DNA of 44,559 nucleotides from Deltaproteobacteria bacterium. Lineage in GTDB: Bacteria > Desulfobacterota_D > UBA1144 > Nemesobacterales > UBA2774. Location: NCBI GenBank assembly GCA_029262275.1, contig JAJCZS010000015.1, positions 1-44,559 of the forward strand, given 5' to 3'. Both the position numbers and the translations under genes were made by a program. The notes below the pieces were generated by a model that searched no databases, was not told the origin of the DNA, and saw nothing but the letters and a program-made list of their open reading frames with translations. Of the stretch, positions 2,101-44,559 are shown in pieces. How positions within the stretch are numbered: position 1 is the stretch's first letter; each line of letters starts with the position of its first letter.

Positions 2101-2235
2101 AATTATCTTGAATGGTTATAAAAATATTACATATTGTTTCTCAACTAATAATTTGATATGATAATAAATAAGTTTTATTACAATCTTGAGAACATCTTTA
2201 TCTACAAACGTGTTTATATACAAAGGAGGAGTAAG

Positions 2236-7136: not shown

Positions 7137-7276
7137 TTACTGTCATTTCATTTTTGCAATTATGATCCACATATCAAATCATGAGCAAGTTTATTAGCGT
7201 TCCTGTTCAAATCTTGACACTAAATGCTGCATTTACTACTATTGCTATATACAAATATGTCTATGGAGGAGCAAGG

Positions 7277-8296
7277 ATGGCTGATATGATACGAAGGAGT
7301 TTAACTTATTCTTTTATTGTTTTTTTCTGCTTTGCATTCATCGCTGAGGCTCAAACGCCTACTATCATTACAAATGAACAGACACTTTCCAGAGATCAAA
7401 ACCTAGTTATTAACGGAAGTTTTGAAGAGCCTCATCTTGAAGAAGGAGATGATTTTGGCGGTTTTTTACCAGGAGTTGACGGCGATGGGTACTACTTTCT
7501 TTCACCAATTAATACAGTAGACACTCCGATAGCCCAGCCCGATGGATGGACAATCTCTGGTGGAGGCACTTTATCGTACGGCAGATGGGGGAACAATATA
7601 AATTCAGTTTCAAATATGGGTGTCACCCTCCCTATAGCTGGACAGGCATGGTCTTCAACGGAAATACACGGGGAAAGGTCTATATACCTTGGTAACCAAA
7701 CCCCGCTTGCCATTTCAGAAGAACCTACATTCATGCCTAATGGAGAAGTAGTCTTTACTACTCCGCCCATAATTACTCTTAAACCCGAATATGGACCTGA
7801 TCCGCTCCAGATCAGTCAGAATGTAGAAGGGTTCGTACCCGGCGGCGTGTACAGAATGAGCTTCTGGGTTTCAGGAGAATGGAGTAATAATGGATTTGCT
7901 ACTTCGGAGTTCGGAACAACTGCGGGTGACGGAATTGTGGGTGTACTTATTGAGGGGTATGAGATCTTGTATCTGGCGATTCCTGCTGGAAATTCCAAAG
8001 AACCTGCCGGTGCACCACATGTTTTCGGCACAGATGAGTTTCATACATACACTCTGGAATTTGTAGCAAGCGATACAGAAATGGAAATTTCCTTTATGAA
8101 TTGGGGACACTTTGACTCTCTTTCCGATACAATTGGCTGGGAACGAGGACAGTCTACAGAACTGATTATGGATGACATAATTATTAACGGAATAAGAAAC
8201 GTGCCTACTCTTTCTCAATGGAGCATGGTCGCCCTGGCTGCTATTTTGGGAATAGCTGCATTTATAGCCTATAGAAGAAAACAATTGACTACGTAA
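7277..8296 (+). CDS. IPTL-CTERM-like secreted protein, DUF642/carbohydrate-binding-like
   Basis: A 339-residue exported protein. The frame is open from 7181, but GGAGGAG at 7265-7271 and the signal peptide point to ATG 7277. The mature part opens with NLVINGSFEEP, the entry motif of DUF642 and related galactose-binding-fold modules, and later has GVYRMSFWVSG and a closing MDDIIINGI, all typical of that fold. The C-terminal tail is a variant sorting signal: VPTLSQWS, where the usual Gly is Ser, then a helix and YRRKQ. Such proteins bind cell-surface sugars in plants and bacteria; here that is inference. Own terminator follows. Confidence 0.75.
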   Translation: MADMIRRSLTYSFIVFFCFAFIAEAQTPTIITNEQTLSRDQNLVINGSFEEPHLEEGDDFGGFLPGVDGDGYYFLSPINTVDTPIAQPDGWTISGGGTLSYGRWGNNINSVSNMGVTLPIAGQAWSSTEIHGERSIYLGNQTPLAISEEPTFMPNGEVVFTTPPIITLKPEYGPDPLQISQNVEGFVPGGVYRMSFWVSGEWSNNGFATSEFGTTAGDGIVGVLIEGYEILYLAIPAGNSKEPAGAPHVFGTDEFHTYTLEFVASDTEMEISFMNWGHFDSLSDTIGWERGQSTELIMDDIIINGIRNVPTLSQWSMVALAAILGIAAFIAYRRKQLTT

Positions 8297-13046: not shown

Positions 13047-13928
13047 ATGAAAAGCTTAAAAACTATTTATATAACACTTTTAATGGTGTTCATGGTCTTG
13101 TTTGGTATTGAGACCACATGGGCACAGCCAGAAGAAGCAACATTTAATTTCACTGGAGGACAACAGTCTTTTGTCGTACCCCCCGGTGTTAATACAATCA
13201 ATATTCAAGCATGGGGAGCACAAGGAGCGGATGCTAGTGTTGTAGGCCTAGGAGGCTTAGGAGGCTTTGCGCAAGGAAACTTGACTGTTACACCTGGACA
13301 AACACTTGAGATATTTGTGGGGGGTCAAGGAACTCCGGTAGATGATCAGAATTTCGGCGGCGGTGGTTTTAATGGGGGAGGAGATGCAAGAGGTGGAAAC
13401 AATATTGGTAACGAACGTGGGGGTGGGGGTGGAGCCTCGGATGTTAGAGCGGGAGGAACTGAATTTAGTCAGCGAGTAATAGTCGCAGCAGGTGGTGGTG
13501 GAGCTAGTGGAACCGAAACTCGCTTTGGCGGCGCAGGTGGAGGATTGACAGGAGGAGATGGAGGCGTTGAGACAGGATTTGGAGGAACACAAACCACAGG
13601 GGGTCTCGGGGCTTTCCCTTCTTGTCTAGATGGGGAATTTGGTCTCGGAGGTGATAGTTCATTAAGTGCTAGCTGTGCTGGTGGCGGCGGTGGTTGGTAT
13701 GGCGGCGGCGGCGGAGCCGGTGCCGGTGGTGGTTCTTCATACATAGATGGTGTAGAAAATGGTAGCACTACACCTGGATTAAGGGAAGGAGACGGCTTGA
13801 TAATTCTCTCATATACACCTGTTGCTACTAGTGTCCCAACCCTATCTGAATGGGGTCTTATTTCCATGGCAGGGCTTCTTGGAATCGTAGGATTTATGGT
13901 TATCAGAAGAAGGCAAGTTACTGCTTAA
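13047..13928 (+). CDS. IPTL-CTERM glycine-rich secreted protein
   Basis: A 293-residue exported protein with signal peptide (about residue 27, TWA-Q). The start FNFTGGQQSFVVPPGVNTINIQAWGAQG is characteristic of bacterial Gly-rich surface proteins related to the PF12810 family; a long region (about 70-240) of Gly-rich loops with GGGGGASDVR and GGGGSSYID-like motifs follows. It ends VPTLSEWG, helix, RRRQ, the exosortase-H tail. AAAGGAGG at 13030-13037 sets the ATG. Long antisense frames here are caused by the Gly-codon bias and are not genes. Monocistronic with its own terminator. Confidence 0.85.
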   Translation: MKSLKTIYITLLMVFMVLFGIETTWAQPEEATFNFTGGQQSFVVPPGVNTINIQAWGAQGADASVVGLGGLGGFAQGNLTVTPGQTLEIFVGGQGTPVDDQNFGGGGFNGGGDARGGNNIGNERGGGGGASDVRAGGTEFSQRVIVAAGGGGASGTETRFGGAGGGLTGGDGGVETGFGGTQTTGGLGAFPSCLDGEFGLGGDSSLSASCAGGGGGWYGGGGGAGAGGGSSYIDGVENGSTTPGLREGDGLIILSYTPVATSVPTLSEWGLISMAGLLGIVGFMVIRRRQVTA

Positions 13929-28191: not shown

Positions 28192-28338
28192 TTATAAAAT
28201 CGGGAGCAATATCCCAATTTCTGCTATTCCATGTATATTAAAGACATTCGTCTTATACATCCATGTGTTTTTCTAAAAAATTGCATTATGTTCTAAAAAT
28301 GTTGTATCTCAAAAAGATTTAGGAGGATTTATTAGATT

Positions 28339-31487: not shown

Positions 31488-32855
31488 ATGATTCCAACGA
31501 ATAAATTCAATATTAGATTTATACCCTTATTTGTTTTCATTTTCTTTGTTACATCACCATTATTCGCTGCACCCATTGAAACAGTAACCAATACAAATGA
31601 TGCAGGCGCAGGATCACTCAGACAAGCATTAGCCGATGTTGATCCGGGTGGTGAGATTATTTTCAATCTTCCTGGCGCGGCCCCTCATACGATATTTATT
31701 TCTGACACACTATTAATTACTAAGGGTTTAACTATTACAGGTCCAGGAAGGAGTTTCTTAACTATTAACGGGGCAGGGGGCGGATTTCGTGGATTTCTTA
31801 TTGGCGATGGGCTTGATGCAAATTCCCAAATATTAATCTCAGGTCTTACTCTAAATGGAGGAATAACAGTTTTTAATGGAATAGTAAATTCAGAGGAACT
31901 CACTTTAAACGATGTTGTTGTTACAGGCTACAGAAATGGGATATTTAACTCAGGACCGGGAACAGATGATGATGTGGCTTCAGTCTTATCTCTAAATGAA
32001 TCATTAATAACTGCTAATAGTCAAAGCGGTATATTTAGTTTTCCAGCTGAAACGCAACAATCTGAGAGCTCTCGAGTGAGTGTTACCCGTTCCACTATAT
32101 CAGGCAACAGTTCAGCGGGGATGGCAATTGTTGGACCGATTGAAGATTCAGCATTAGGTACTGTTGTCAGTATAAATAAATCAACTATTTCAAACAACTT
32201 GCAAGGGATAGTAATTGAAGGTGCCTCAGCTCCAGGGGCAACAGGTGGGACTTTAACTGTCTATAATTCCACAATATCCAATAACAATGGGGATGGTATA
32301 CAAACGAACGGCGGCACAAATGGTGGTACAGGAGCTACAACAAGAGTTAGCAGCTCTACCGTTACTGGAAATGCTTTTATAGGCCTTATAAATTTTGGTG
32401 CTGATCCACTAACTGAGGTAAAGAATTCAATCATATCCGAGAATGGTATAAACAACTGTGGGGCACTAGACGGAGTCTTTACTCCAATGGGTGTAAACTT
32501 TAGCACCGACAATACATGTCCTGGTTTTAATGAAGTTGCCCCAGCTGATCTAAATCTTGGACCGCTTCAAAACAATGGAGGCCCTACAGAGACTCACGCT
32601 TTAATTCCTCCTAGTGTTGCAATTGATGCAGTTACTGATTGTACTTTTATAGATGGAAGTCCTGTGCTTCAAGACCAAAGATGCTTCTTTAGACCTTCGA
32701 CTAACTGTGACGCAGGAGCTTTTGAGTTTGGAGCACCTCAAATGTTGACAAGGGATGTTCCTGCACTCTCAACCTGGGGAGCAATCATAACTGTAATTTT
32801 TATGGGTATTGCGGCTATGTTTTATTACAGAAGAACAAAACTAGTTGCTAAATAG
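31488..32855 (+). CDS. IPTL-CTERM-type right-handed beta-helix protein (choice-of-anchor Q)
   Basis: A 455-residue exported protein with signal peptide (LFAAP). VTNTNDAGAGSLRQALADVDPGGEIIFNLPG is the standard opening of choice-of-anchor Q/beta-helix surface proteins. Then come repeated rungs with STISGNS, STISNN, STVTGN, and a Cys-containing region. The end NGGPTETHALIPPSVAIDAVTDC, QRCFFRPSTNCDAGAFEFG is the normal anchor Q domain. The tail is VPALSTWG, helix, YRRTK. GGAGGTC precedes the ATG. It ends five bases before the convergent DUF523/DUF1722 gene. Confidence 0.85.
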   Translation: MIPTNKFNIRFIPLFVFIFFVTSPLFAAPIETVTNTNDAGAGSLRQALADVDPGGEIIFNLPGAAPHTIFISDTLLITKGLTITGPGRSFLTINGAGGGFRGFLIGDGLDANSQILISGLTLNGGITVFNGIVNSEELTLNDVVVTGYRNGIFNSGPGTDDDVASVLSLNESLITANSQSGIFSFPAETQQSESSRVSVTRSTISGNSSAGMAIVGPIEDSALGTVVSINKSTISNNLQGIVIEGASAPGATGGTLTVYNSTISNNNGDGIQTNGGTNGGTGATTRVSSSTVTGNAFIGLINFGADPLTEVKNSIISENGINNCGALDGVFTPMGVNFSTDNTCPGFNEVAPADLNLGPLQNNGGPTETHALIPPSVAIDAVTDCTFIDGSPVLQDQRCFFRPSTNCDAGAFEFGAPQMLTRDVPALSTWGAIITVIFMGIAAMFYYRRTKLVAK

Positions 32856-32859
32856 AATG

Positions 32860-33828
32860 TTAAGTTGTCCGGCCTTTTCCGGAGTCGGATATCTCTACAA
32901 GCTCACTAGGGTAGGGCTCAAAGAATGTCTGGCGGGCTAGATACTCTTCATCGTATTTTATTATCCAAGATTGAAGCACAGCTAGGACTGCGCTTAGTGG
33001 TATTTTGTGATTACGGTAATTCTCTAGTAAGTCTAAAAAATATGCCTTCTCTTTTGATGTTAGTTTCTTTGAGAAATATCCAAGTGCGTGCATAAGTGTA
33101 TTTATATGTGTCCCTTTTCTAGGGTTATTTGAAAGAGCTGTTTGCAAGTGCGTCTCATATTCAGAGATCACATCTTCAATAGGAGCTTTATCCTTGTTGC
33201 CGACTATTCTACCTAGGACTCTCATCTCGGTCTGGTTATATGACATAAATATAAGCTTATTATCTGATTGAAAGTCCACAAGAGACTTTGCTGTCTTTCT
33301 CTTCTTTACCTCTCTAAAACGGGCAAATGTGAAAAGTTTTGTAAGAAAGCTCTCTCTTATAGTAAAGTTCAAAAGTCGGCCCTCATCCTCTATTGCAACG
33401 CCTGGATACTTTTCGAGCACCTTCTCTGCAAATAAGCCAGGACCTCTGCCTATTGGGCTTGAGTTTTCACTGTCGCTATATATCTTTGCATCCTTAATTC
33501 CGCAAGAAGGGGAACGACTCTTTAATATAAAACCATCTACAGTTTCAAGAGACTGTAAAAAGCTATCTGCGAAACTGTACATTTTTTTTGAAAGCTCTTT
33601 ACCGCTTGTTGGCTGAACAAGTTGTCTTTTTCCTTTTTTCTCGACAACGCGGATTATGTCTCTTGGAACCCCTAGCCCTATTTCGACCTCTGGGCATATG
33701 GGAACAAATTTCACAAAAGGCTCAAGCTTCTGAACAAAATTGTTGGGAATCATAACCCCGTTATAACGGCAGGCATCAAACTCAAAACACTTACTTGTTA
33801 CAACTACGGGTTTTGGGAATTTTTTCAT
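32860..33828 (-). CDS. DUF523-DUF1722 protein, RudS-type tRNA 4-thiouridine desulfidase candidate
   Basis: A 322-residue protein with a TudS-like (DUF523) N-terminal half and a DUF1722 C-terminal half. The first half has cysteines in SKCFEFDACRYNG (Cys14, Cys20), PICPEVEIGLGVPRD (Cys45) and SRSPSCGIKDAKIY (Cys109); this pattern binds a 4Fe-4S cluster in TudS enzymes. The DUF1722 half has MRVLGRIVGN, KGTHINTLMHALGYF and KIPLSAVLAVLQSWI. RudS enzymes remove sulfur from s4U in tRNA and lessen UVA damage. E. coli ybgA, of the same DUF1722 group, is next to phrB. Here it is seven bases after the upstream gene and last in the light cluster. Confidence 0.85.
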   Translation of the reverse strand: MKKFPKPVVVTSKCFEFDACRYNGVMIPNNFVQKLEPFVKFVPICPEVEIGLGVPRDIIRVVEKKGKRQLVQPTSGKELSKKMYSFADSFLQSLETVDGFILKSRSPSCGIKDAKIYSDSENSSPIGRGPGLFAEKVLEKYPGVAIEDEGRLLNFTIRESFLTKLFTFARFREVKKRKTAKSLVDFQSDNKLIFMSYNQTEMRVLGRIVGNKDKAPIEDVISEYETHLQTALSNNPRKGTHINTLMHALGYFSKKLTSKEKAYFLDLLENYRNHKIPLSAVLAVLQSWIIKYDEEYLARQTFFEPYPSELVEISDSGKGRTT

Positions 33829-33835
33829 TATAGGT

Positions 33836-34621
33836 TTATTGAACTGTTGAGCTTGTCTCTGGTTTGCTACCAGTGATTGCGCCTCTTATTTCATTCCATT
33901 TACTAGTGAGATATCTGTATGCAGACTCGGCTTCGCTTATTTTACCTTCACCAGCAAGTTCCAGGACACTGTGAATTTCAGAGACCGAATCTTCATTCTT
34001 CATAGACTCAGGCTCTATATGAGTGCATATCTCACCATAATTTAATATTATAATGCTTCTTGGATCAAAGCCAGAGAGCCAGTTTTCCAAATTGATAATG
34101 TTGTCACTCAATTCTTTAAGTGTTTCAGCTAAAGCTTGTGAGGTTCCCGCCTCTATTTTTCTTAATGCAGACTCAATATTCTCTTTTGACTGTTTGAGTC
34201 TACGGGTAGCCATTTCTACTTTGCCATTGTAATAGATCGCGTCTTGCTGAATTGCGCCAAACCCTGTGTGCGTATAAAAGTAATGCTTTTCTTCTTTTGA
34301 AAACATTAGAAACCACTCGAAAGGAATAAAATTCTCTGCACTGAAGATATTAATATTTACCTCTGATCCTACTGGGACGATGAAATAATTCTTATCTTCA
34401 TCTTGAAGAAAAAAACAATCTTGTATCTCTTCTTTATTGAGACCCAACTCGTTTGAGAGCGATTTTCTGAACTGGTCATATTCTGTTCCGAACCAAGCGG
34501 ACTGAGGTGTGGCGGGCCCGTCCCAGTATTTTTCATAGTAGGATACGTAGCTTTTCCAGTAGCTTTCCTTCTCTCTCGTTGACTCAATTGGTTGGTATAC
34601 CATAAGTACGCTAATTGCCAT
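33836..34621 (-). CDS. Soluble protein of unknown function in the light cluster
   Basis: A 261-residue protein without signal peptide or membrane segment. Its N-terminal half (VLMVYQPIESTREKESYW, GPATPQSAWFGTEY, FFLQDEDKNYFIVPVGSEVNINIF) has no motif I know, the middle is a coiled-coil-like Glu/Arg/Lys/Ala helix, and the C-terminal part is acidic. It lies between photolyase and RudS candidate. A 132-base gap before it has a possible promoter (TTGGCT at minus 34684-34689, 16-bp spacer, GATAAT at 34662-34667). Confidence 0.55.
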   Translation of the reverse strand: MAISVLMVYQPIESTREKESYWKSYVSYYEKYWDGPATPQSAWFGTEYDQFRKSLSNELGLNKEEIQDCFFLQDEDKNYFIVPVGSEVNINIFSAENFIPFEWFLMFSKEEKHYFYTHTGFGAIQQDAIYYNGKVEMATRRLKQSKENIESALRKIEAGTSQALAETLKELSDNIINLENWLSGFDPRSIIILNYGEICTHIEPESMKNEDSVSEIHSVLELAGEGKISEAESAYRYLTSKWNEIRGAITGSKPETSSTVQ

Positions 34622-34753: not shown

Positions 34754-36136
34754 CTAGTCGATCTTAGTAAAAACTTCTTCCTTTTTAATCTTTGATATAT
34801 AATCATCATCAATTCTGCCCCCAGAGTATGCTTCATGGGCGAGATTTCTCATCTCATAATGATTAACTATGGGTTCATGGTAGGGAAGTTTGTAAGTAAG
34901 TGGGTTATGAATCTTCTCAGGCTCGAGATCTCTTAATTCTGGTATATATGTCTTAATATATTTACATTCTGGATCGAACTTTTGAGACTGGAGTATCGGA
35001 TTGAAGATCCTAAGGGGTTTAGGGTCTGCTCCGCAAGATGCTGACCACTGCCAGTTTCCTATGTCTACCGTCTCATCATAATCTATCAAATGGTCTCTAA
35101 AATGTTTATCTCCCCAACGCCAGTCGGTGAGGAGGTCTTTAGTAAGGAAAGATGCAACAATCATGCGTGCTCTACCGTGCATCCAGCCTTCTTCCTTGAG
35201 CTGTATCATGGCCGCATCCACAATTGGGTATCCGGTGCGCCCCTCTTTCCAGGCGTTATACCAGCTCTCATTGTTTATCCACTTTATGTTTCTTCTCTTT
35301 GCCTGAAATTCAATGTCTTTGGTCTCAGGGAAATAGTGCATAATGTGGTACCAAAACTCTCTCCACGCAAGCTCAGACACATATTGGTTTGCCTCAGGGG
35401 TTGCGCTGAGCGCAGCGTTGTATACCTTCCTGACGGATACCGTGCCAAACCTCAAATAAGGAGATAGTCTAGATGTGCCGTCAATATATGGGAAATTTCT
35501 TCTCTCATCATATTCTTTAAAGTTAAAACTCCACAATCTTTGGTCAGGATAATCCATTGGCCAGTGCGTATTCTCTGTGTGGCTTATTCCCTCTATAGTG
35601 TTTTCAAGTGACGTATTTAGAATCTCAGGAGAATTAATTCTCTTAGGTTGGGGAATTTCCTGACATTTAGGTTTCCCCTTCCAAAGTTTGTAAAAAGGGG
35701 TGAATACCTTGCGTTGTTCAATCTTTTCTGGAGGCACAAGAAATGTGTCTTCAAATTTTTTAAATTTGATCTCGTTTGATTTGCAAAAATGTTCTATTTT
35801 AAGATCTCTGCTTATCCCTGAGAACCCGTATGCACGGTTACAGTAAACAGAATCTGCACCATAAGTTCTTATGGTTCTAGGTATTGCTTCTTCTGCTTTT
35901 CCTTTTATCACAAATAAGTATGAACCAAGCTCTCTTAGGTCCTTGTCCAGTTTTCTAAGAGCATCAAAGAAGAATCCAAGTCGTTTGCTATCTCTTGGAT
36001 AACTCTCCAGTATGTCGTCGTCCAATACATATACTGGCAAAACTTCGCGGCTGTCCTCTATTACGTGAAAGAGTCCGGTGTTGTCTGCAACTCGAAGGTC
36101 TCTCTTAAACCAAAAAATGGCTCGCTCGTTCTTCAT
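34754..36136 (-). CDS. phrB: Class I DNA photolyase (cryptochrome/photolyase family)
   Basis: A 460-residue flavoprotein that splits UV-made pyrimidine dimers using blue light. The N-terminal alpha/beta domain starts IFWFKRDLRVADN (antenna site). The FAD domain has TSRLSPYLRFG (221-231), ELAWREFW (255-262), WMHGRARMIVASFLTKDLL (318-336), and GNWQW (360-364); GADPKPLRIFNP (369-380) is also typical. The start overlaps the stop of the upstream OMP gene (ATGA), so the two are translated together. Class I CPD type is likely; a 6-4 type is less so. Confidence 0.9.
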   Translation of the reverse strand: MKNERAIFWFKRDLRVADNTGLFHVIEDSREVLPVYVLDDDILESYPRDSKRLGFFFDALRKLDKDLRELGSYLFVIKGKAEEAIPRTIRTYGADSVYCNRAYGFSGISRDLKIEHFCKSNEIKFKKFEDTFLVPPEKIEQRKVFTPFYKLWKGKPKCQEIPQPKRINSPEILNTSLENTIEGISHTENTHWPMDYPDQRLWSFNFKEYDERRNFPYIDGTSRLSPYLRFGTVSVRKVYNAALSATPEANQYVSELAWREFWYHIMHYFPETKDIEFQAKRRNIKWINNESWYNAWKEGRTGYPIVDAAMIQLKEEGWMHGRARMIVASFLTKDLLTDWRWGDKHFRDHLIDYDETVDIGNWQWSASCGADPKPLRIFNPILQSQKFDPECKYIKTYIPELRDLEPEKIHNPLTYKLPYHEPIVNHYEMRNLAHEAYSGGRIDDDYISKIKKEEVFTKID

Positions 36137-37110
36137 AATCTTATAGTTATGCTGCCTCCAACAAATGGTGCTGTATCGAAATCTTCTTTTCTAATTCTTT
36201 TTCCGTTTTTATTCTCTAATTCAAGTTGTCCAAAAAAGAGCAATCCTCCATAACCATTAACTGTAAGGTATTTGTTTATGTCGTATGATACTCTTCCTAC
36301 CCACGGCATTGCCTTGAAATCTCCTATACCTTTTGGGAAATTGCCGTCTTTCTCAAGTCTAAATCTATTAAATTCATAGCCTATATTTGTTGCTACCTTA
36401 AATCCGTTTTTAAAGTCATAGGATATTTCAGCTTTAGGTCCAAAATCATTTCTTGCACCAACTGCTAGTGTAGTTAAACGGATACGATCAGTAATACCCC
36501 AATCAAGAAATCCGATAGGATAACCAATTACGCTATCCTCCAGTCGGCTTCCCACAAATCCTCCAAAACCTATTCTAAAGTTAGGACCGGTGGTGTAGCT
36601 TACTCCAGCCAATCCACCTAGTGTGAATGAGTCCCAGAAAGGAGCGTTAAATTCAGCTCCATATGAGATAACGGGCATGACAAAGACGCCCCAATTCTTA
36701 TTAACGGCATAAGTTACCCTCATGCTGTTATTTGAGATATTTACATTTCTCCACGGCCTAAGCCCGGCAAATCCTTTGGAGCCTGAGAAATCAAAATTAT
36801 AATAGTTATAAGTAGAGCCAAATGTTACTCGTAAGCGCTCAGTTGCTGTAAAGGTGGCATCATGACTGAACCCAAGTCTTGTTATGTTGAACTTCCCACC
36901 ACCGTCAATGTCGGTGTTGAACATATGCTCTGCATTTCCGTTTATCCTTACTGCCCATCTCTCAAAAAAAGTAAGCTCTTTTTTCTCTAATCTTTCCATT
37001 CTTTCTGGTTGGGCTTGAGAAAAGGTAGGGCTTAAAAAAAGGATTAAAGTAAAAACAACAAGAAATCTATACAACATGGAACTCATAATAACTGATCTAT
37101 TTTTTGTCAT
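36133..37110 (-). CDS. Outer-membrane beta-barrel protein
   Basis: A 325-residue exported protein. Residues 1-34 include a signal peptide (QAQ). The mature part has alternating hydrophobic strands separated by short turns (RLRVTFGSTYNYYNFDF, SMRVTYAVNKNWGVFVMP, FRIGFGGFVGSRLE, VATNIGYEFNRFRLE) and ends with the aromatic-type signature GGSITIRL that outer-membrane barrels need. It resembles the DUF6268 group. GGAGGAG precedes ATG. It lies in the light cluster with its own likely promoter and overlaps the photolyase gene by four bases. Confidence 0.75.
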   Translation of the reverse strand: MTKNRSVIMSSMLYRFLVVFTLILFLSPTFSQAQPERMERLEKKELTFFERWAVRINGNAEHMFNTDIDGGGKFNITRLGFSHDATFTATERLRVTFGSTYNYYNFDFSGSKGFAGLRPWRNVNISNNSMRVTYAVNKNWGVFVMPVISYGAEFNAPFWDSFTLGGLAGVSYTTGPNFRIGFGGFVGSRLEDSVIGYPIGFLDWGITDRIRLTTLAVGARNDFGPKAEISYDFKNGFKVATNIGYEFNRFRLEKDGNFPKGIGDFKAMPWVGRVSYDINKYLTVNGYGGLLFFGQLELENKNGKRIRKEDFDTAPFVGGSITIRL

Positions 37111-37187: not shown

Positions 37188-38645
37188 TTAAATTTTTTGA
37201 TCAATAACAGCTTTGGAATTAGTTTTGATTGCTATATGTTTTTGGGCATCTTGAGCTATAGCTCTTATCATATCATCAAAAATAAAGCGGTGGATTGGGT
37301 ATAGGGATCGCCAGTAAAGAACTCCCCAAAGCCCTGAGGGTTCAAAAAGTGCTGTCTGTACAAGTCTTGTTCCATCTCCCTCCGGCATTGCCTGCCACTC
37401 AAGCCATGCTCTTCCTGGAACCTTCATCTCTGCCCTGAGCCTTAGTGTCTCAGGTCTTTCTATTTCTTCAACTCTCCAGAAATCAACCGCCTCTCCAGGT
37501 AGTAGTTCGAGAGGGTGTCTTCTGCCTCTGCGAAGCCCCGGTCCTCCCATTAATCTGTCAATTAGTCCTCTTATCTTCCATGCCCATTTCCAAACAAGCC
37601 AGCCTTTCTCGCCGCCCAGGCTAGTAAATGAGTTAAATACATCTTCAGGATCAACCGAGTCTATGTGTATTGACCTTCTCTCTGTTACAAGACCTCTCCA
37701 CTCAGATACGCTATATGTGGACTCTGTCCCTAATGCGCCGCTCCATCTTGTCTCCACTTCACCTTTGTTTACGTGATTTAGAGCGCGCTCAACTGATTCA
37801 ATATAGGGTAGGGGGTGTATTTCAGGAAACACCTCTTGAGCTTTTGTAGTGTCGCCAACAATAGGATGTATAACTCCCTCGATTAAAGGTACAGCAAGAG
37901 AGTTTGATATTGGTGTCACGAGTCCAACCCATATTGCAGCCAGCTTTGGTGCAAGCACTGGGACTGTAATTATTGTTCGTGTGAGACCTCTTACCTTTGC
38001 ATACCCGTCCATCATTTCCTTAAAAGTGAGTATGTTAGACCCTATATCAATTACACCTTTGTACTTAGTGTCCAAAGCCTTCACCAGATACCTCATTACA
38101 TCTTTTACGGCAATAGGTTGTACTTGATGGTGTATCCATTTTGGAGCTATCATGATAGGGAGCCTTTCCGTTAGGTATCTCACCATCTCAAAGGATGCAG
38201 AGCCTGATCCAATAATTGGGCCTGCTCTAAACTCAGTTGTAGGCAGACCTGCTCTAAGAATTTCTCCCACCTCGCATCTGCTTTTTAGGTGGTTAGAAAT
38301 CTCTTTTGCTTTAGGTAAAAGACCGCCAAGATATATTACGTGCTTAAGTTCTTGCCCCGCTTGAACAAAATTATTTGCAGCGTCTCTGTCTCTCTCTGCA
38401 TAGTTTTTTCCGCCGTACATTGAGTGTACAAGATAATATGCAGTATCTATATCTTTAAGTGCGGATTTGAGACTCTCTGGGTTTAACAAATCTCCGACGC
38501 ATATTTCAACTTTGTCCTGCCAAGGTCTTCCCTCAATTCTTGATGCATCTCTTACAAGCACTCTTACTTTAATCCCCTTTTCAAGTAGGTCAGAGATAAG
38601 ACGCCCGCCAATATATCCAGTTGCTCCAGTTACTAATACTTTCAT
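37188..38645 (-). CDS. SDR-family NAD(P)-binding protein with DUF2867 domain
   Basis: A 485-residue protein. The N-terminal half has the extended/atypical SDR nucleotide-binding motif VTGATGYIGG (5-14) and VGDLLNPESL, YLVHSM. The C-terminal half (about 300-470) is DUF2867, with SVSEWRGLVTERRSI, RGRRHPLELLPGEAVDFWRVEEI, LEWQA and FEPSGLWGVLYWRSLYPIHRFIF. The same fusion occurs near litR/photolyase in other bacteria. It is possibly involved in modifying a membrane lipid or quinone; substrate unknown. Fourteen bases after the sigma-factor gene. Confidence 0.85.
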   Translation of the reverse strand: MKVLVTGATGYIGGRLISDLLEKGIKVRVLVRDASRIEGRPWQDKVEICVGDLLNPESLKSALKDIDTAYYLVHSMYGGKNYAERDRDAANNFVQAGQELKHVIYLGGLLPKAKEISNHLKSRCEVGEILRAGLPTTEFRAGPIIGSGSASFEMVRYLTERLPIMIAPKWIHHQVQPIAVKDVMRYLVKALDTKYKGVIDIGSNILTFKEMMDGYAKVRGLTRTIITVPVLAPKLAAIWVGLVTPISNSLAVPLIEGVIHPIVGDTTKAQEVFPEIHPLPYIESVERALNHVNKGEVETRWSGALGTESTYSVSEWRGLVTERRSIHIDSVDPEDVFNSFTSLGGEKGWLVWKWAWKIRGLIDRLMGGPGLRRGRRHPLELLPGEAVDFWRVEEIERPETLRLRAEMKVPGRAWLEWQAMPEGDGTRLVQTALFEPSGLWGVLYWRSLYPIHRFIFDDMIRAIAQDAQKHIAIKTNSKAVIDQKI

Positions 38646-38659
38646 TGTTCCCTCAGTTT

Positions 38660-39835
38660 TTATAAATACCCTTTTAGCTTTTCGCCTTTTTTAGACGAAG
38701 CAATTTTTTTAAGTGCAGATTTTTCAATTTGTCTTATACGTTCTCTAGTCACTCCAAATTTAGTTCCTATTTCATCAAGAGTGTGCACTGTGGTGTTTCC
38801 AAAACCATATCGCATCCGAACAATCTCCTCTTCCTTCTCAGACAAGTTTGTTAGAAGCTCGCTAAGCAGCCCCTTCATGTTGCTATTATCAACAACATAT
38901 TCCTGCCCGCTTGAATTGCTGTCAGGCACAAAGTCCATATAGGTTCTCGATCGATCCTCTTTAATCGGATTGTCGAGTGAGAGAACCTTATCTGTACCAT
39001 CAAGCACTGCCTCTACTATATCCACGCTGAGTTTTGCTCTCTCTGCTATTTCTAAGGGCAGAGGCTTTCTCTCAAGCTCTTCCTGAAGCATGTATTTGGC
39101 TTTAAATACTTTACTCGATTGCTCAAGAACATATACGGGTACTTTAATTGTTCTTGTTTTCTCAGCAATAGCTCTAGTTACTGCCTGGTGAATCCACCAC
39201 GCTCCGTAAGTAGAGAATTTAAAACCCTTCGTGTGATCAAATTTTTCAACCGCTCTAATCAAACCTAAGTTTCCTTCCTGAACAAGATCAGTTAATCCAA
39301 GGCCTTTCCCAAGGTGTCTTTTTGCTATATTAATAACAAGTCGTAGATTGGCTCTTATAAATTTCGATTTTAGCTCACTAGCTTTTCTGTCGTAACTTTT
39401 CCTAGAAGCTAGGAGCTTATTTGTTTCTTGCTTGTTGGTTTCTCCAATTCTCTTGAGTTTTTTGTCTATCTTGATAATTCTATTGTTACATTCTTTTATC
39501 TGAGCACCAATCTCTTTTTCTTGATCGCCAGTTAAAAGCTTCTCATCCATTAAGTCCTTAAAATATACATAGAGCACTCTTTCTTCTTCAAATTTAGTCC
39601 ACTTATAATTAGTATTTTCTGAAGGGCTATTTGCCACTTTTTCAGATTTTTCTTCTATCGCGCTATGTTCAGGGCTCTCGTCATAATCATTATTTGAAAA
39701 TTCAATTTCGATATCGTTATCTAACCCTATATTCTCAGCAAAACCTTCAATACGTAAATCATCACTGGAATTATCGGAAAATATTTGAGAGTCTTCATAG
39801 TCTGTATGATCAAAACTGCTGTTTGTATAATCCAT
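38660..39835 (-). CDS. RpoD-family alternative (group 2-like) sigma factor
   Basis: A 391-residue sigma70-family protein. An acidic N-terminal extension (residues 1-80) is followed by region 1.2 (88-115), region 2 (156-236, including LVINIAKRHLGKGLGLTDL and FKFSTYGAWWIHQAVTRAI), region 3, and region 4 with HTLDEIGTKFGVTRERIRQIE (about 352-372). It lacks the long region 1.1 and non-conserved block of a housekeeping RpoD. It sits between fasciclin and SDR genes in the cluster; likely relays the light signal. Promoter class is not readable. Confidence 0.85.
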   Translation of the reverse strand: MDYTNSSFDHTDYEDSQIFSDNSSDDLRIEGFAENIGLDNDIEIEFSNNDYDESPEHSAIEEKSEKVANSPSENTNYKWTKFEEERVLYVYFKDLMDEKLLTGDQEKEIGAQIKECNNRIIKIDKKLKRIGETNKQETNKLLASRKSYDRKASELKSKFIRANLRLVINIAKRHLGKGLGLTDLVQEGNLGLIRAVEKFDHTKGFKFSTYGAWWIHQAVTRAIAEKTRTIKVPVYVLEQSSKVFKAKYMLQEELERKPLPLEIAERAKLSVDIVEAVLDGTDKVLSLDNPIKEDRSRTYMDFVPDSNSSGQEYVVDNSNMKGLLSELLTNLSEKEEEIVRMRYGFGNTTVHTLDEIGTKFGVTRERIRQIEKSALKKIASSKKGEKLKGYL

Positions 39836-39909: not shown

Positions 39910-40404
39910 TTAATCAGGAATAATGACTGCATCTATTACATGTATAACACCGTTACTAGCCATTATATCGGCTGTTACAACTGTGGCGTTATCAACTTTT
40001 ACCACTCCGTCATTCACTGCAATCGGTATTCCTTTTCCATTTACAGATTTGGCCTCTTTTACTTTCACTACATCTGCAGAGGTTACTTTTCCAGGAACTA
40101 CGTGGTATGTAAGAATCGCCACGAGCTGTTCTTTGTTCTCTGGTTTTAGGAGATTCTCTACAGTTCCCTCTGCAAGAGCTGCAAATGCTTCATCCGTTGG
40201 TGCAAAAACAGTAAAAGGACCATCGCCCCTTAGGGTCTCTTCAAGCCCAGCTGCTTGTACTGCAGCTACTAGTGTTGTAAATGATCCTGCTTCAACTGCA
40301 GTGTCGACAATATCTTTACTGTCTTTACTGCCTGAGAATGCCTGTACTGACCCAAACACTAACACTGCTACCACCATCAACATCAAAGTCTTAAATTTGG
40401 TCAT
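39910..40404 (-). CDS. Secreted fasciclin-domain protein
   Basis: A 164-residue exported protein. CGGAGG on the minus strand fixes ATG 40404; a frame from 40437 has no ribosome site. A signal peptide (VQAF) precedes one fasciclin (FAS1) domain with [16 protein letters not shown] (H1), [10 protein letters not shown], and [13 protein letters not shown] (H2). Such domains mediate adhesion between cells or with polymers. First gene after the putative light-controlled promoter at 40524-40552; often light- or stress-induced in other bacteria, but that is inference here. Confidence 0.9.
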
Positions 40405-40504: not shown

Positions 40505-40521
40505 TGTCTATCAGATGTCTA
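40505..40521 (-). promoter_or_regulatory. Putative CarH/LitR operator, minus-strand promoter
   Basis: TAGACA occurs twice on the minus strand (complements of TGTCTA at 40505-40510 and 40516-40521), 11 bases apart. Both fit the nnTnnaCAnn core described for Thermus CarH, whose repeats are 11 bp apart. They overlap the expected transcription start of the fasciclin-sigma block. Confidence 0.5.
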
Positions 40522-40523
40522 AC

Positions 40524-40552
40524 AGTATAAACATGTGTATAATACATGTCAA
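40524..40552 (-). promoter_or_regulatory. Sigma70 promoter for the fasciclin-sigma block
   Basis: Minus strand: TTGACA (40547-40552), 17-bp spacer, TATACT (40524-40529). The spacer contains ACATGT twice, separated by seven bases (40532-40549), giving an imperfect palindrome as MerR-family regulators like to bind. Confidence 0.65.
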
Positions 40553-40675
40553 GCATTATTTTAAAGTTTCTATTAAACTGTTTAAGTTAAGTAATTCTAG
40601 GGAATCTGTATGTTTTTGTAGGAAGATCGAGGTTGATTAAGTTGATAATAAGATGTATTTGTGACAATTAGCATG

Positions 40676-40704
40676 TTGACAAATGTTAGACAATCCTTTA
40701 ACAT
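40676..40704 (+). promoter_or_regulatory. Promoter and operator of the B12-MerR gene
   Basis: TTGACA (40676-40681), 17-bp spacer, TAACAT (40699-40704). TAGACA at 40687-40692 is 11 bases from TTGACA in the same direction, again matching the CarH core and spacing, so autoregulation is likely. The start would fall at or near ATG 40711. Confidence 0.55.
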
Positions 40705-40710
40705 AAGTTT

Positions 40711-41682
40711 ATGAGCAAACCTGAACAAATAGAAGATAAAAAATATTCAATCAAAGTTGTATCAATGAGAACAGGCCTTAGTGCACATGCTATAAGGGCT
40801 TGGGAGAGAAGGTATAATGCGGTCTCTCCTAAAAGAGATTCCAATAACAGAAGATATTATACAGAAGATGATATAGAGAGACTTTCTCTATTAAAAAGGG
40901 CAACTGATGCTGGATTTGGGATTAGCCAGCTTGTTGCCTCTAGTGATGAAGAGCTTAAGGATCTAATTTCCTCTATGAATGTTATTGATCTGCCAGTCAA
41001 AACCAATCGATCCCAAAATGAAGTAATAGTAAACGTGCCAAACTCTACATATGAAAACTATGTGGAGAGTTTTATGAATGCACTTGAGCAGATGGACTCT
41101 AAAACACTTGAGAATGTTTTGATTCAGTCTGAGACTGATTATGGTCTAAATGGAATGATTGAAAATGTCCTGGTTCCCCTTATGGAAGAAATAGGTGAGG
41201 GCTGGAGAAAGGGAAACCTCAGAATTTCTCATGAGCATTTGGCCTCACATGTTATTAGAACTTTTTTGGGCGGAGTATTGGCAACACATAAATCTTCTCC
41301 TTCTGCTCCAAATGTTCTTGTTACCACTCCTACAGATCAATGGCACGATATTGGGGCATTGATAATTGCAGTTACAGCAGCAAGTGAAGGGTGGAACGTT
41401 ACATATCTTGGAGCAAATCTGCCTTCAGAAGAGATTGCAGGCTCGGTTAAGCAGAATAATTGCAGAGCTGTAATATTGAGCATCATTTATCCTGAAGATG
41501 ATCCTGTATTAGTACAGGAAATTAGAAAACTTAAGCGCTCACTTCCTGATAACGTGGCAATTGTAACAGGAGGCAGGGCCAGCGCCAGCTACAGAAAAGT
41601 GCTAGATGAAATAGGAGCTTTGCAGGTAGATAGCCTCTACAACATCAGAACCACTTTAGAATCTCTTAGATCAAAGAAATGA
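40711..41682 (+). CDS. Cobalamin-binding MerR-family photoreceptor regulator (CarH/LitR-type)
   Basis: A 323-residue DNA-binding light sensor. Residues 13-75 are a MerR winged helix (IKVVSMRTGLSAHAIRAWERRY, NNRRYYTEDDIERL). Residues 110-190 are the four-helix cap with Wx9EH (Trp165, Glu175, His176), the motif that sits on the adenosyl face of B12 in CarH. A Rossmann-like cobalamin domain follows, with TPTDQWHDIGAL placing His212 as lower axial ligand. In CarH, dark tetramers repress and light splits them. Arg166 replaces the next-to-Trp His of Thermus CarH. No ribosome site: probably leaderless. Divergent from the fasciclin-photolyase block. Confidence 0.88.
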   Translation: MSKPEQIEDKKYSIKVVSMRTGLSAHAIRAWERRYNAVSPKRDSNNRRYYTEDDIERLSLLKRATDAGFGISQLVASSDEELKDLISSMNVIDLPVKTNRSQNEVIVNVPNSTYENYVESFMNALEQMDSKTLENVLIQSETDYGLNGMIENVLVPLMEEIGEGWRKGNLRISHEHLASHVIRTFLGGVLATHKSSPSAPNVLVTTPTDQWHDIGALIIAVTAASEGWNVTYLGANLPSEEIAGSVKQNNCRAVILSIIYPEDDPVLVQEIRKLKRSLPDNVAIVTGGRASASYRKVLDEIGALQVDSLYNIRTTLESLRSKK

Positions 41683-41690
41683 TTCTCTGA

Positions 41691-42593
41691 TTAAACTTTT
41701 ATTTTATGCCGTCTTAAGAACCAAACACCGATCAGCACCAAAAATAAGGCCACACTCAGATGTCCCCACTGACTTAGTGTTGGAACATCGGTGATTATTG
41801 GTGGAACTAGTGTGGGCGGAGGCGGAGTAATAGTTGGAGGAGGCATTGTTGGGGGATCCGGAACCATTCTAAGGGCTATTGTGCATGCTCTCCAGTCTCT
41901 TGCTGCTCCCGTATACATTTGGGTTCCTGTTCCTGTGGGACCGTCAGAGTTAACTAGCGCACTTGTTCCAATTGAGGAAATTTGTGAGCTGTCTACTGTT
42001 GCCTCTGAGGTGAAAGAGGCGGACTGAGGGGTTACCATAATATCGTCTATTTCATCTTCAGTGTTTGGAGCAAAAGAGTTGAAAATTCTTACAACCTGAG
42101 AGCCTGCTTCTGTCATAATAGATGGAGCTGTTGCCGTGTTGCTCATTCCTTCGCTGCAGGATATTCCAATCACTGGATTCATCTCATCAACGTTTGAATA
42201 CCGAAGCGTACCGCCGGCAAACAATACGGTTGTCTGCATGCTATTACAGGTCAACATTTCAGATGCAGCGTTGTTTGTGAATCCTCCCCATATACCAGTT
42301 ATACAGTTTAAGTTGTCCGCACAATTATCTAAATCTTGCTGTGTAAATATTGCAGGAGATGGCGCGTTAAAAGTGTTAATAGAGCTATTATTAAAAGCAA
42401 CACAGGTAAGTAGTAAGTAGTTGCCTGACTGGCCAGGTCCGGTATCGATATCCAGAACATTGGTCATTCCTGGAGCAGTTACTGATGAGAAAGAATTAAT
42501 ACCACCGCTCTCAATTAACACGTCTGCATATGAGTTGGCTGTATAAAATGCTAAAGATAGAACTATAAAAAGTATCGTAGTAAAAACTTTCAT
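41691..42593 (-). CDS. IPTL-CTERM secreted protein (tandem family, copy 1)
   Basis: A 300-residue exported protein with signal peptide (SYAD, about residue 23). The body shares its layout with the next two genes: an LLTCVAF or equivalent line, FNAPSPAIF, DNCADNLNC, GIWGGFTNNAAS, EMLTCN, LFAGGTLRYSNVDEMNPVIGISC. A Pro/Thr-rich stretch (about 243-268) leads to VPTLSQWG, a helix and RRHK. The Pro stretch is unique to this copy. A GGTGGAG site precedes the ATG. Eight bases after the MerR gene stop, convergent. Confidence 0.8.
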   Translation of the reverse strand: MKVFTTILFIVLSLAFYTANSYADVLIESGGINSFSSVTAPGMTNVLDIDTGPGQSGNYLLLTCVAFNNSSINTFNAPSPAIFTQQDLDNCADNLNCITGIWGGFTNNAASEMLTCNSMQTTVLFAGGTLRYSNVDEMNPVIGISCSEGMSNTATAPSIMTEAGSQVVRIFNSFAPNTEDEIDDIMVTPQSASFTSEATVDSSQISSIGTSALVNSDGPTGTGTQMYTGAARDWRACTIALRMVPDPPTMPPPTITPPPPTLVPPIITDVPTLSQWGHLSVALFLVLIGVWFLRRHKIKV

Positions 42594-42693
42594 TCTCCAC
42601 CTCCGCCAAAAGATATATTGCTCATTATATCATTAGCTAAATATTAATACAAAGATGGTTGAGGAAATGTTTTAAGAAGGGAGTGTAGGGAAT

Positions 42694-42721
42694 CCGGTGC
42701 CTCTAATTTAAGAAGCACCGG
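42694..42721 (-). terminator. Hairpin after IPTL paralogue (weak terminator)
   Basis: CCGGTGC (42694-42700) pairs with GCACCGG (42715-42721), 18 bases after the minus-strand stop at 42740. No clear T run follows. The equivalent hairpin after the next copy is at 43724. Confidence 0.5.
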
Positions 42722-42739
42722 TTTATAGTTAGAATTAAT

Positions 42740-43624
42740 TTAGGCAGTAACTTGACGTCTTCTTAGGAACCAAAATCCTGCAATACCAGCAAATGCTGCG
42801 AAACTTATAAGTCCCCACTCACTCATTGTAGGAACTGCCCTAGCAAATGAAGGCGGAGGCCCCATTCTAAGAGCTATTGTACAAGCTCTCCAGTTAGTGG
42901 GCGTTGTTATATCATTTGGTGCGAAAGTAAGTTCATCTGTTCCCGTGGGTCCTGCGTTGGCAAAAAACTCAGCAACGCCGTCACTTGCGATGATCTGAAA
43001 AGTGTTTAAAGAAATTGAATCGTACTGGATCAACTGACCCATGCTAGTATCTAAGTTTGCAAATGTGCTTGGCATGATATTTGGAATAGTTAGAGATTGA
43101 AATGTAAATATTCTTACTACCATTGATCCAGCTTCTGTCTGAATTGAAGGTGCTGTTGCTTGATCTGTGCCAGCTCCTGTGGAACATGCCAAATCAATTA
43201 TAGGGTCATTACCATCTACACCTGAGAATCTCATTGATCCGCCAGCATAAACAAAGTTGCTCTCTGACCAGTTGCAGTTAACTCCTTCAGAATTAGGACT
43301 GTCTGTAAAACGTCCCCAGACACTACCTATGCAGGTAAAATCTCCGCCGCATTGACCATTATCCAACTCTGTCCATGCGCCTGGTGTAGGGGCTGAAAAA
43401 CTGTTTACATCGTTAGGGTCTACTACGGCACATCCAATTAGCTCGTAGTCGCCAACACTGCCGGAACCTGTAGCAATAGGGCCATCATTAAATGGAGCCT
43501 GACTTGAAAAGCGTATGTCTGATTCAATGTCTACAACCGAAACATCGGCTTGGGAAACTGTTGCTACAAAGAGTAGTGATAATACAAAAATAGGTAAAAA
43601 TAGGAACTTTCTATTCATATTCAT
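42740..43624 (-). CDS. IPTL-CTERM secreted protein (tandem family, copy 2)
   Basis: A 294-residue exported protein with signal peptide (SQAD, about 27). Shared blocks: VGDYELIGCAVV, FSAPTPGAWTELDNGQCGGDFTC, GSVWGRFTDSPNSEGVNC, FVYAGGSMRFSGVDGNDPIIDLAC, GTDQATAPSIQTEAGSMVVRIF, WRACTIALRM. Tail: VPTMSEWG, helix with FAGIAGFWFLRRRQ, nearly identical to copy 3. The Cys pattern (GQC, FTC, VNC, LAC, RAC) is conserved across copies. Body unlike any family I know. Confidence 0.8.
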   Translation of the reverse strand: MNMNRKFLFLPIFVLSLLFVATVSQADVSVVDIESDIRFSSQAPFNDGPIATGSGSVGDYELIGCAVVDPNDVNSFSAPTPGAWTELDNGQCGGDFTCIGSVWGRFTDSPNSEGVNCNWSESNFVYAGGSMRFSGVDGNDPIIDLACSTGAGTDQATAPSIQTEAGSMVVRIFTFQSLTIPNIMPSTFANLDTSMGQLIQYDSISLNTFQIIASDGVAEFFANAGPTGTDELTFAPNDITTPTNWRACTIALRMGPPPSFARAVPTMSEWGLISFAAFAGIAGFWFLRRRQVTA

Positions 43625-43723
43625 CCTCCAATGTTAATTTCAATACTATATTAACATTATTGCATATAAAAGAACAGTAAGTTAGGTATGTAATTAAGGG
43701 TGGAAACAAGAATGAAGGATTTG

Positions 43724-43751
43724 CCGGCGCATCTTGTTACAGAAACGCCGG
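43724..43751 (-). terminator. Hairpin after third IPTL paralogue (weak terminator)
   Basis: CCGGCG (43724-43729) pairs with CGCCGG (43746-43751), about 22 bases after the minus-strand stop at 43774. It matches the hairpin after the neighbouring copy in position and shape. Confidence 0.5.
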
Positions 43752-43773
43752 TTTTATTTATAGTCAAAATTAA

Positions 43774-44559
43774 TTAGGCTGTTGCCTGACGTCTTCTAAG
43801 GAACCAAAATCCTGCAATACCTGCAAAAGCTGCAAAGCTGATAAGTCCCCACTCACTCATGGTTGGGACTGATCTTGTCGCCATTCTCAGAGATAGAACA
43901 CATAGCCTTGCCGCATTATCGCTCACAGGTGTTACAAGTCCTGGAAATCCCACCCCATCTACATCGAGTGTGCTATTTGAAAGTATAGCTAGTACCTCTT
44001 CTCCACCCACTACCTCAGATGCTGCAAATCCAGCAAAAGTTGGACCACTCAGAACAGTTTCCGTTCCCATATTGCCCGGAACTTCTATTATCTGCACCGT
44101 TACAAGCTGAGCGCCTGGCTCTGAGCTAACAGATCGTAGTACAAGATCACTACCTTCCAGTTCTGTACATGCCATGTCAATTATTGGGTTAATTCCATCT
44201 ACATTAGAATAACGATAACTACCTGCTAGGAACACAGAAGAACTATTAGCCCAACTGCATGTAATCTCCTCTGAGTCGGGATTATCAGTAAAGCGTCCCC
44301 ATATACCTAGCTGACAATCAGCAAGATCTCCACATGTACCATTGTCTAACTCATCCCATGTACCAGGACTAGGCGCATTAAAAGGGTTAGGAGCGCCATC
44401 AGACTCAACACCACAAACAACTAGTTCGTAATTGTTAAAATTGTCAAAGTCACTAGCGCCAGATTCTATAACTCCCGATGTCAGTCCGCCATTGGAATCA
44501 CGGTTTACTCTTGCATCGTTAATTAAAACATCTGCAATTGAATTGTTTACAAATGCAAA
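43774..44559 (-). CDS. IPTL-CTERM secreted protein (tandem family, copy 3, 5' truncated)
   Basis: The frame is open without a stop from the right edge to 43774, giving 261 residues; an inner ATG at 44235 is not the start. The visible N-terminus (FAFVNNSIADVLIN) is the end of a signal peptide, as in copy 1 (SYADVLIE). Shared blocks: NNYELVVCGV, FNAPSPGTWDELDNGTC, GIWGRFTDNPDSEEITC, FLAGSYRYSNVDGINPIIDMAC, LCVLSLRM. Tail VPTMSEWGLISF, a helix and FLRRRQ, almost identical to copy 2. The start lies outside the window. Confidence 0.85.
   Translation of the reverse strand, partial: FAFVNNSIADVLINDARVNRDSNGGLTSGVIESGASDFDNFNNYELVVCGVESDGAPNPFNAPSPGTWDELDNGTCGDLADCQLGIWGRFTDNPDSEEITCSWANSSSVFLAGSYRYSNVDGINPIIDMACTELEGSDLVLRSVSSEPGAQLVTVQIIEVPGNMGTETVLSGPTFAGFAASEVVGGEEVLAILSNSTLDVDGVGFPGLVTPVSDNAARLCVLSLRMATRSVPTMSEWGLISFAAFAGIAGFWFLRRRQATA

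Follow-up and report, generated by a model that had tools for sequence, protein, structure and literature searches.

Tandem TnnACA repeats as predicted operators of a CarH-type B12 photoreceptor beside a sigma factor and photolyase operon in an uncultured bacterial lineage

The operators of the photoreceptor CarH consist of tandem 11-bp repeats of the form nnnnTnnACAn, which AdoCbl-CarH occupies in the dark and leaves on illumination, three such repeats being counted for Thermus and four for Bacillus (PMC9304148). RudS and photolyases, in turn, have been reported in LitR-type light operons (PMC11417400). Here, I describe how one intergenic region compares with these systems. The window, i.e. 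the whole stretch of 44,559 nucleotides that was analysed, is the entire contig C15 of a 2.48-Mb genome bin (97.5% complete), and the region lies between a fasciclin gene on the minus strand (ATG at 40404) and a gene for a MerR-B12 regulator on the plus strand (ATG at 40711). From the repeats and their statistics, their conservation, the synteny of the locus, the overlap with promoters, the domains and motifs of the regulator and the presence of an adenosyltransferase gene, it appears very probable that the repeats are the operators of this neighbouring AdoCbl-dependent photoreceptor CarH, through which it would repress a light-stress operon in the dark and also repress its own gene.

The preliminary description of this DNA had noticed one TnnACA pair at each of the two divergent promoters, and both are where it placed them, with a step of exactly 11 bp in each case and, as it claimed, with the step and core of the published Thermus CarH operator unit (PMC9304148; PMC8156234). 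What it overlooked was a third plus-strand repeat, an in-register TATACA on the minus strand and hence the 2+2 layout there. The carH promoter on the plus strand carries three repeats in an 11-11 layout, namely TTGACA (40676-40681), which is also the -35 hexamer, TAGACA (40687-40692) and TTAACA (40698-40703), the last in register and overlapping the -10 hexamer TAACAT (40699-40704). The fas/sigma promoter on the minus strand carries four repeats as two pairs in an 11-20-11 layout: TTGACA (40552-40547), which is the -35 hexamer, and TATACA (40541-40536), which lies exactly 11 bp on in the promoter spacer, are followed after a 20-bp step by TAGACA (40521-40516) and, 11 bp further, by a second TAGACA (40510-40505). 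Of the two extra minus-strand matches that had been proposed, TTGACA thus belongs to the array, while TACACA was rejected as a further repeat, being 2 bp out of register, overlapping TATACA and not conserved in relatives. At both promoters, at least two adjacent 11-bp nnnnTnnACAn tandem repeats overlap the -35 or -10 hexamer, as is the criterion for a CarH operator; contiguity of all repeats, as in Thermus and Bacillus, is seen at the carH operator but not at the fas/sigma operator, and no pair of the class II LitR type, T(G/A)TACA-N12-TGTA(C/T)A, was found among the array sites.

The regulator (40711-41682, plus strand) is a protein of 323 amino acids with the Pfam domains MerR_1, B12-binding_2 and B12-binding, for which Thermus CarH/LitR provide the nearest solved structures. 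Its MerR winged-helix DNA-binding domain (MerR_1, 3.5e-17) has kept the recognition helix RxWERRY, as IRAWERRY. NCBIfam model NF052513 for CarH gives 131.3 bits, which is far below the equivalog cut-off of 400 bits, a threshold for naming rather than a biological feature, and it is still the best family by far. The regulator occurs in 10 of the 16 family genomes, the window included, with 56-82% identity in the others, and in one genome of another family within the same order (G024; 43% identity). The first CarH signature, Wx9EH, is present as W-RKGNLRISH-EH; in the second, D/ExHx2G-x41-SxV/T-x22-27-GG, the His, the S, the GG and spacings of 41 and 27 are found, with QWHDIG bringing Q for D/E and SxI standing for SxV/T. 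All family orthologues and G024 carry Arg directly behind the Trp, which rules out the bis-His light state known from Thermus CarH. Many CarH proteins have His at this position, not all of them (PMC9304148), and it is no defining feature of CarH; also, one study found that H132A in Thermus CarH hinders light-driven disassembly of the tetramer (PMC10442372), such that the light exit of an Arg-bearing regulator may differ. Taken together with conservation, the CarH operator unit and the two signatures of the regulator, the second with substitutions, support the tie between the repeats and the adjoining sensor that had been proposed from the letters of this region.

It is here that the alternative to be taken most seriously arises, i.e. 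that this regulator does bind the repeats as its operators, yet has ceased to be an AdoCbl photoswitch and responds instead to redox, to oxygen or to a partner protein, as the B12-independent CarA and class II LitR proteins do. The Arg at the H132 position and the Gln at the E175 position would fit this, as would a sister family in this class, where the pairing of sigma gene and regulator persists although both B12 motifs are gone; however, Wx9EH and the axial (lower-ligand) His, whose loss marks B12 independence, are unchanged in the window protein, in its nine family orthologues and in G024, and 16/16 family genomes have a gene for a PduO-type (PF01923) AdoCbl-forming adenosyltransferase, making AdoCbl plausible, and I therefore consider this alternative unlikely. 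In that sister family (f8), all 12 CarH-like regulators (~30% identity) have Wx9ER together with QKAELG or QRAELG, and thus have lost both B12 signatures, the recognition helix reads WEERY versus WERRY in two aligned regulators, and the divergent gene is a sigma factor at both loci checked. Furthermore, TnnACA sites stand 21 bp apart in 11/11 of its upstream regions (L082-L093, G045-G056), which lie ~130 bp ahead of the CarH-like gene and among which a single 11-bp step was found, although the genomes are related and do not represent 11 independent events. This suggests that the spacing of the operator changed along with the loss of B12 sensing.

Returning to the AdoCbl-dependent CarH, the promoters indicate how it may act. 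On the minus strand, TTGACA-17-TATACT agrees with the sigma-70 consensus hexamers at 11/12 positions, the 20-bp gap that parts the two pairs is exactly where its -10 hexamer TATACT (40529-40524, after the 17-bp spacer) sits, and the predicted transcription start falls under repeats 3 and 4. On the plus strand, TTGACA-17-TAACAT agrees at 10/12 positions, bearing out the claim that the first plus-strand repeat doubles as the -35 box. The predicted start point of carH (40705-40713 of the window) is on or beside the ATG. Since the carH ATG is 35 bp from the first -35 base, a distance similar in the relatives listed, and no clear Shine-Dalgarno sequence was found ahead of carH, its mRNA is probably leaderless. 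In the dark, oligomers of AdoCbl-bound CarH would contact every TnnACA repeat through a separate MerR DNA-binding domain; on the carH promoter, the protein would lie over the three tandem repeats from -35 to -10, leading to autorepression, and at the promoter of the divergent fas-sigma-DUF2867-DUF6268-photolyase-261aa-RudS operon it would occupy the two pairs, one over the -35 and spacer and one over the transcription start. The site offsets of 0, 11, 31 and 42 bp correspond to 0, 1.05, 2.95 and 4.0 helical turns, i.e. to the same face of the DNA, and thus both pairs would flank the -10 hexamer on one face and shut out RNA polymerase. TnnACA and TATAAT cannot coincide, and the 20-bp gap therefore allows a near-consensus -10; at a second locus, described below, the gap is 21 bp, likewise two turns. 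Either a tetramer would reach across the gap, or two dimers would sit side by side as Cystobacter CarH does on adjacent repeats. Blue or green light would then break the Co-C bond, release the oligomer and induce the operon, and the sigma factor of the operon may pass the signal further. Binding, oligomer state, repression and light release are predictions throughout this scheme.

The position of repeat 2 within the -35/-10 spacer also invites the opposite reading, in which the regulator activates the fas operon from the promoter spacer as classical MerR proteins do. This is very unlikely, as the spacer has the optimal length of 17 bp between two near-consensus hexamers, so that no untwisting of the DNA is needed, one pair lies over the expected start site, which is where a repressor would be placed, and known CarH proteins repress (PMC9304148). 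Less credible again is the idea that the repeats serve another factor and not CarH, e.g. as additional -35 elements read by the sigma factor that the operon encodes. TTGACA is indeed the ordinary -35 box of sigma-70 promoters, and because carH and the sigma gene are found together at the locus, presence and absence alone cannot separate their sites; however, no -10 was found at the proper distance for repeats 2-4, one repeat pair is downstream of the -10, and the 11-bp step is that of CarH, the identical unit also covering the carH promoter itself.

Finally, that the repeats are coincidental -35-like boxes in AT-rich DNA, TnnACA being a weak motif whose single 11-bp pairs are at background genome-wide, has next to no probability given four 11-bp steps in 304 bp, a count not reached in any shuffle, and has already been refuted by sites that are near-invariant in two families while the spacers diverged. 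TnnACA occurs 11 times in the 304-bp intergenic region and the 11-bp step four times, compared to means of 5.8 and 0.057 in dinucleotide shuffles of the same region (n=20,000), of which 0/20,000 had four 11-bp steps or a 4-site array and 0.04% had a run of three, and when step lengths from 6 to 30 bp were scanned in this region, none besides 11 bp was seen more than once. A chance origin of the repeats within the intergenic region is excluded.

Conservation among relatives tells the same story. The preliminary description had staked its reading in advance on the repeats being kept in orthologous promoters, and kept they are: the 11-20-11 array is present in all 10 orthologous promoters for which the sequence suffices, from five genera and two families (the contig of G002 ends too early to be counted). 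The rows were extracted with a loose regular expression for the core, and all promoters of sufficient length were taken in. Repeat 1 is invariant, repeat 2 is TATACA or TAGACA in 10/10, repeat 3 is TAGACA in 9/10 and TAAACA in one, repeat 4 is TnnACA in 9/10, and a TA-rich hexamer occupies the -10 position in 10/10, the single departure from the core across the 10 arrays being TAGACG at repeat 4 in G004. Similarly, the pair on the carH side is found in 11/11 orthologous promoters, with the first repeat as TTGACA in 11/11 and the second as TA[G/T]ACA in 10/11 and TAGACG in G013; the third has its counterpart in genera g1 and g4, and elsewhere the sequence is ATAACA/ATAATT or similar. Between genera, identity at the T and ACA core positions is 98.8%, or 98.4% when the -35 repeat is set aside, compared to 85% for the nn positions, 63% for the -10, and 38% for spacers and flanks, where 28% is expected by chance. 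In addition, where fas is absent from the locus (G001, G003 and G014), the array precedes the sigma gene instead, and thus stays with the sigma-photolyase-261aa-RudS core.

How far the sites reach beyond this locus was addressed with the genome-wide motif search that the preliminary description had proposed. The simple pair TnnACA-5-TnnACA stood at background, with 98 matches versus 98 for a reversed control pattern, i.e. no enrichment. A lone pair elsewhere therefore carries little weight and is unusable for finding targets; the stricter 4-site signature did add one locus. Across the 16 family genomes, the exact 4-site pattern matches the divergent promoter in 8 (window genome included), and otherwise one further locus in the window genome and one stray, compared to 2 matches for the control pattern. 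The carH genomes outside these 8 are G002, owing to its contig end, and G004, owing to one mismatch, and family genomes without carH are also without the array, the one stray excepted. As a regulon finder, TTGACA-5-TAnACA with one mismatch allowed was discarded, as it fell below its control (46 versus 62). TAKACA-5-TAKACA gave 28 matches over the 16 genomes versus 16 for its control, and 15 of the 28 are at two conserved loci, 8 at the divergent fas/sigma promoter and 7 at the second locus.

This second locus (L023) carries its arrays at G000:C22:28081-28129 (minus) and 28244-28260 (plus), between a gene for an 88-aa protein with no Pfam match (L023:7804-8070, minus) and a divergent sulfotransferase gene (L023:8423-9121, plus). 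The 88-aa gene promoter reads TTGACA-11-TATACA-21-TATACA-11-TAGACA and the sulfotransferase promoter TAGACA-11-TAGACA. In G007, G010 and G013, TTGACA-32-TATACA-11-TAGACA is kept at the 88-aa promoter with the second repeat degenerate, the divergent pair is kept in G007 and G010, and the repeats of the locus are partly kept in G013; the neighbouring sulfotransferase orthologues share 73-91% identity, and all four genomes with this locus carry carH. The locus is a further predicted target, and the sequence-detectable regulon is two loci. Two other candidates were set aside: TTGACA-5-TATACA at C29:205236, before an IPTL-CTERM-type secreted protein, is left unproven since it has no second pair in register, and the triple TCAACA/TCCACA/TCCACA at C15:19945 is unlike the array cores. 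Outside the phylum, a Chthoniobacterales CarH homologue (L021) has TTGACA-21-TAGACA-11-TATACA ~112-144 bp upstream of the match, a similar split spacing.

What, then, would be controlled? The divergent operon, all on the minus strand, begins with the fasciclin-domain secreted protein (39910-40404) and continues with a sigma-70 family factor with regions 2, 3 and 4 (38660-39835), an NAD(P)-binding/DUF2867 protein (37188-38645), a DUF6268 protein (36133-37110), a DNA photolyase/cryptochrome (34754-36136), a 261-aa protein of unassigned family that is retained in the operon among relatives (33836-34621), and a TudS + DUF1722 fusion, i.e. a RudS-type tRNA 4-thiouridine desulfidase (32860-33828; PMC11417400). 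Short gaps separate the genes and their order is maintained in relatives, in which sigma, photolyase, the 261-aa protein and RudS form the core and fas, DUF2867 and DUF6268 are variable. As the last gene of the operon is of RudS type, removal of tRNA 4-thiouridine is predicted to be light-induced. Phytoene/squalene synthase (PF00494) was not found in the window genome and within the family was found only in G007, making carotenoids an unlikely target in the window genome. Secreted proteins with a VPTxSxWG-hydrophobic-RRR tail, an IPTL-CTERM-like sorting signal, are frequent in the window (41691-44559, 327-1202, 2158-3609, 7181-8296, 13047-13928 and 31488-32855), three of them in tandem adjoining carH.

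In an uncultured lineage, the sequence alone connects a B12 light sensor with the genes that it would control, and it predicts that light induces repair and tRNA editing where phytoene synthase was not found. The conserved split operator is a naturally occurring case on which to test how repeat spacing is chosen by CarH dimers and tetramers, and the B12-less sister family with its 21-bp spacing allows the states before and after the loss of B12 sensing to be compared in evolution. More tentatively, and at somewhat less than even chances, this could be a lineage-specific CarH system that uses two dimer-sized pairs straddling the -10 instead of a contiguous tetramer site to run a programme for light damage and not for pigment (sigma factor, photolyase, tRNA s4U desulfidase), with the sister family, in which B12 motifs are lost, WERRY has become WEERY and sites are 21 bp apart, representing a second independent CarH-to-CarA-like transition with a matching operator change.

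Set against the described systems, the locus is closest to Thermus thermophilus CarH/LitR (PDB 5C8D-F, 3WHP; PMC9304148), with which it shares the MerR DNA-binding domain with RxWERRY, Wx9EH and the axial His, and an operator of tandem 11-bp TnnACA repeats that includes the -35 (PMC9304148), the carH promoter here having three repeats in two genera; unlike Thermus, it has Arg rather than His after the Trp and Gln rather than Glu two residues before the axial His, a second operator that is split 2+2, and repair and stress targets in a genome in which phytoene synthase was not found. Bacillus megaterium CarH likewise has four TnnACA repeats overlapping the -35 or -10, but these are described as lying in tandem (or as three plus a pseudorepeat; PMC9304148, citing Fernandez-Zapata 2018), whereas the pairs here stand 20 bp apart with the -10 between them. 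Cystobacter CarH dimers (PMC9304148) also use dimer-sized pairs of adjacent 11-bp repeats, several over a promoter, with cooperative occupancy there that is predicted here, although its repeats are contiguous. The Pseudomonas class II LitR proteins PplR1/PmlR2 (PMC9758184) similarly have two sites around the promoter core, at the -35 and after +1, footprinted there and predicted here, and a photolyase and RudS operon is reported to be under LitR control (PMC11417400); however, their site is T(G/A)TACA-N12-TGTA(C/T)A with an 18-bp step, and PmlR2 is switched by a LOV protein. No description of a 2+2 split operator was found in the CarH papers compared. The type of switch is already known, and what is new beside these systems is the conserved split operator, the predicted non-carotenoid light-damage regulon, and a sister family without B12 motifs whose sites are spaced by 21 bp.
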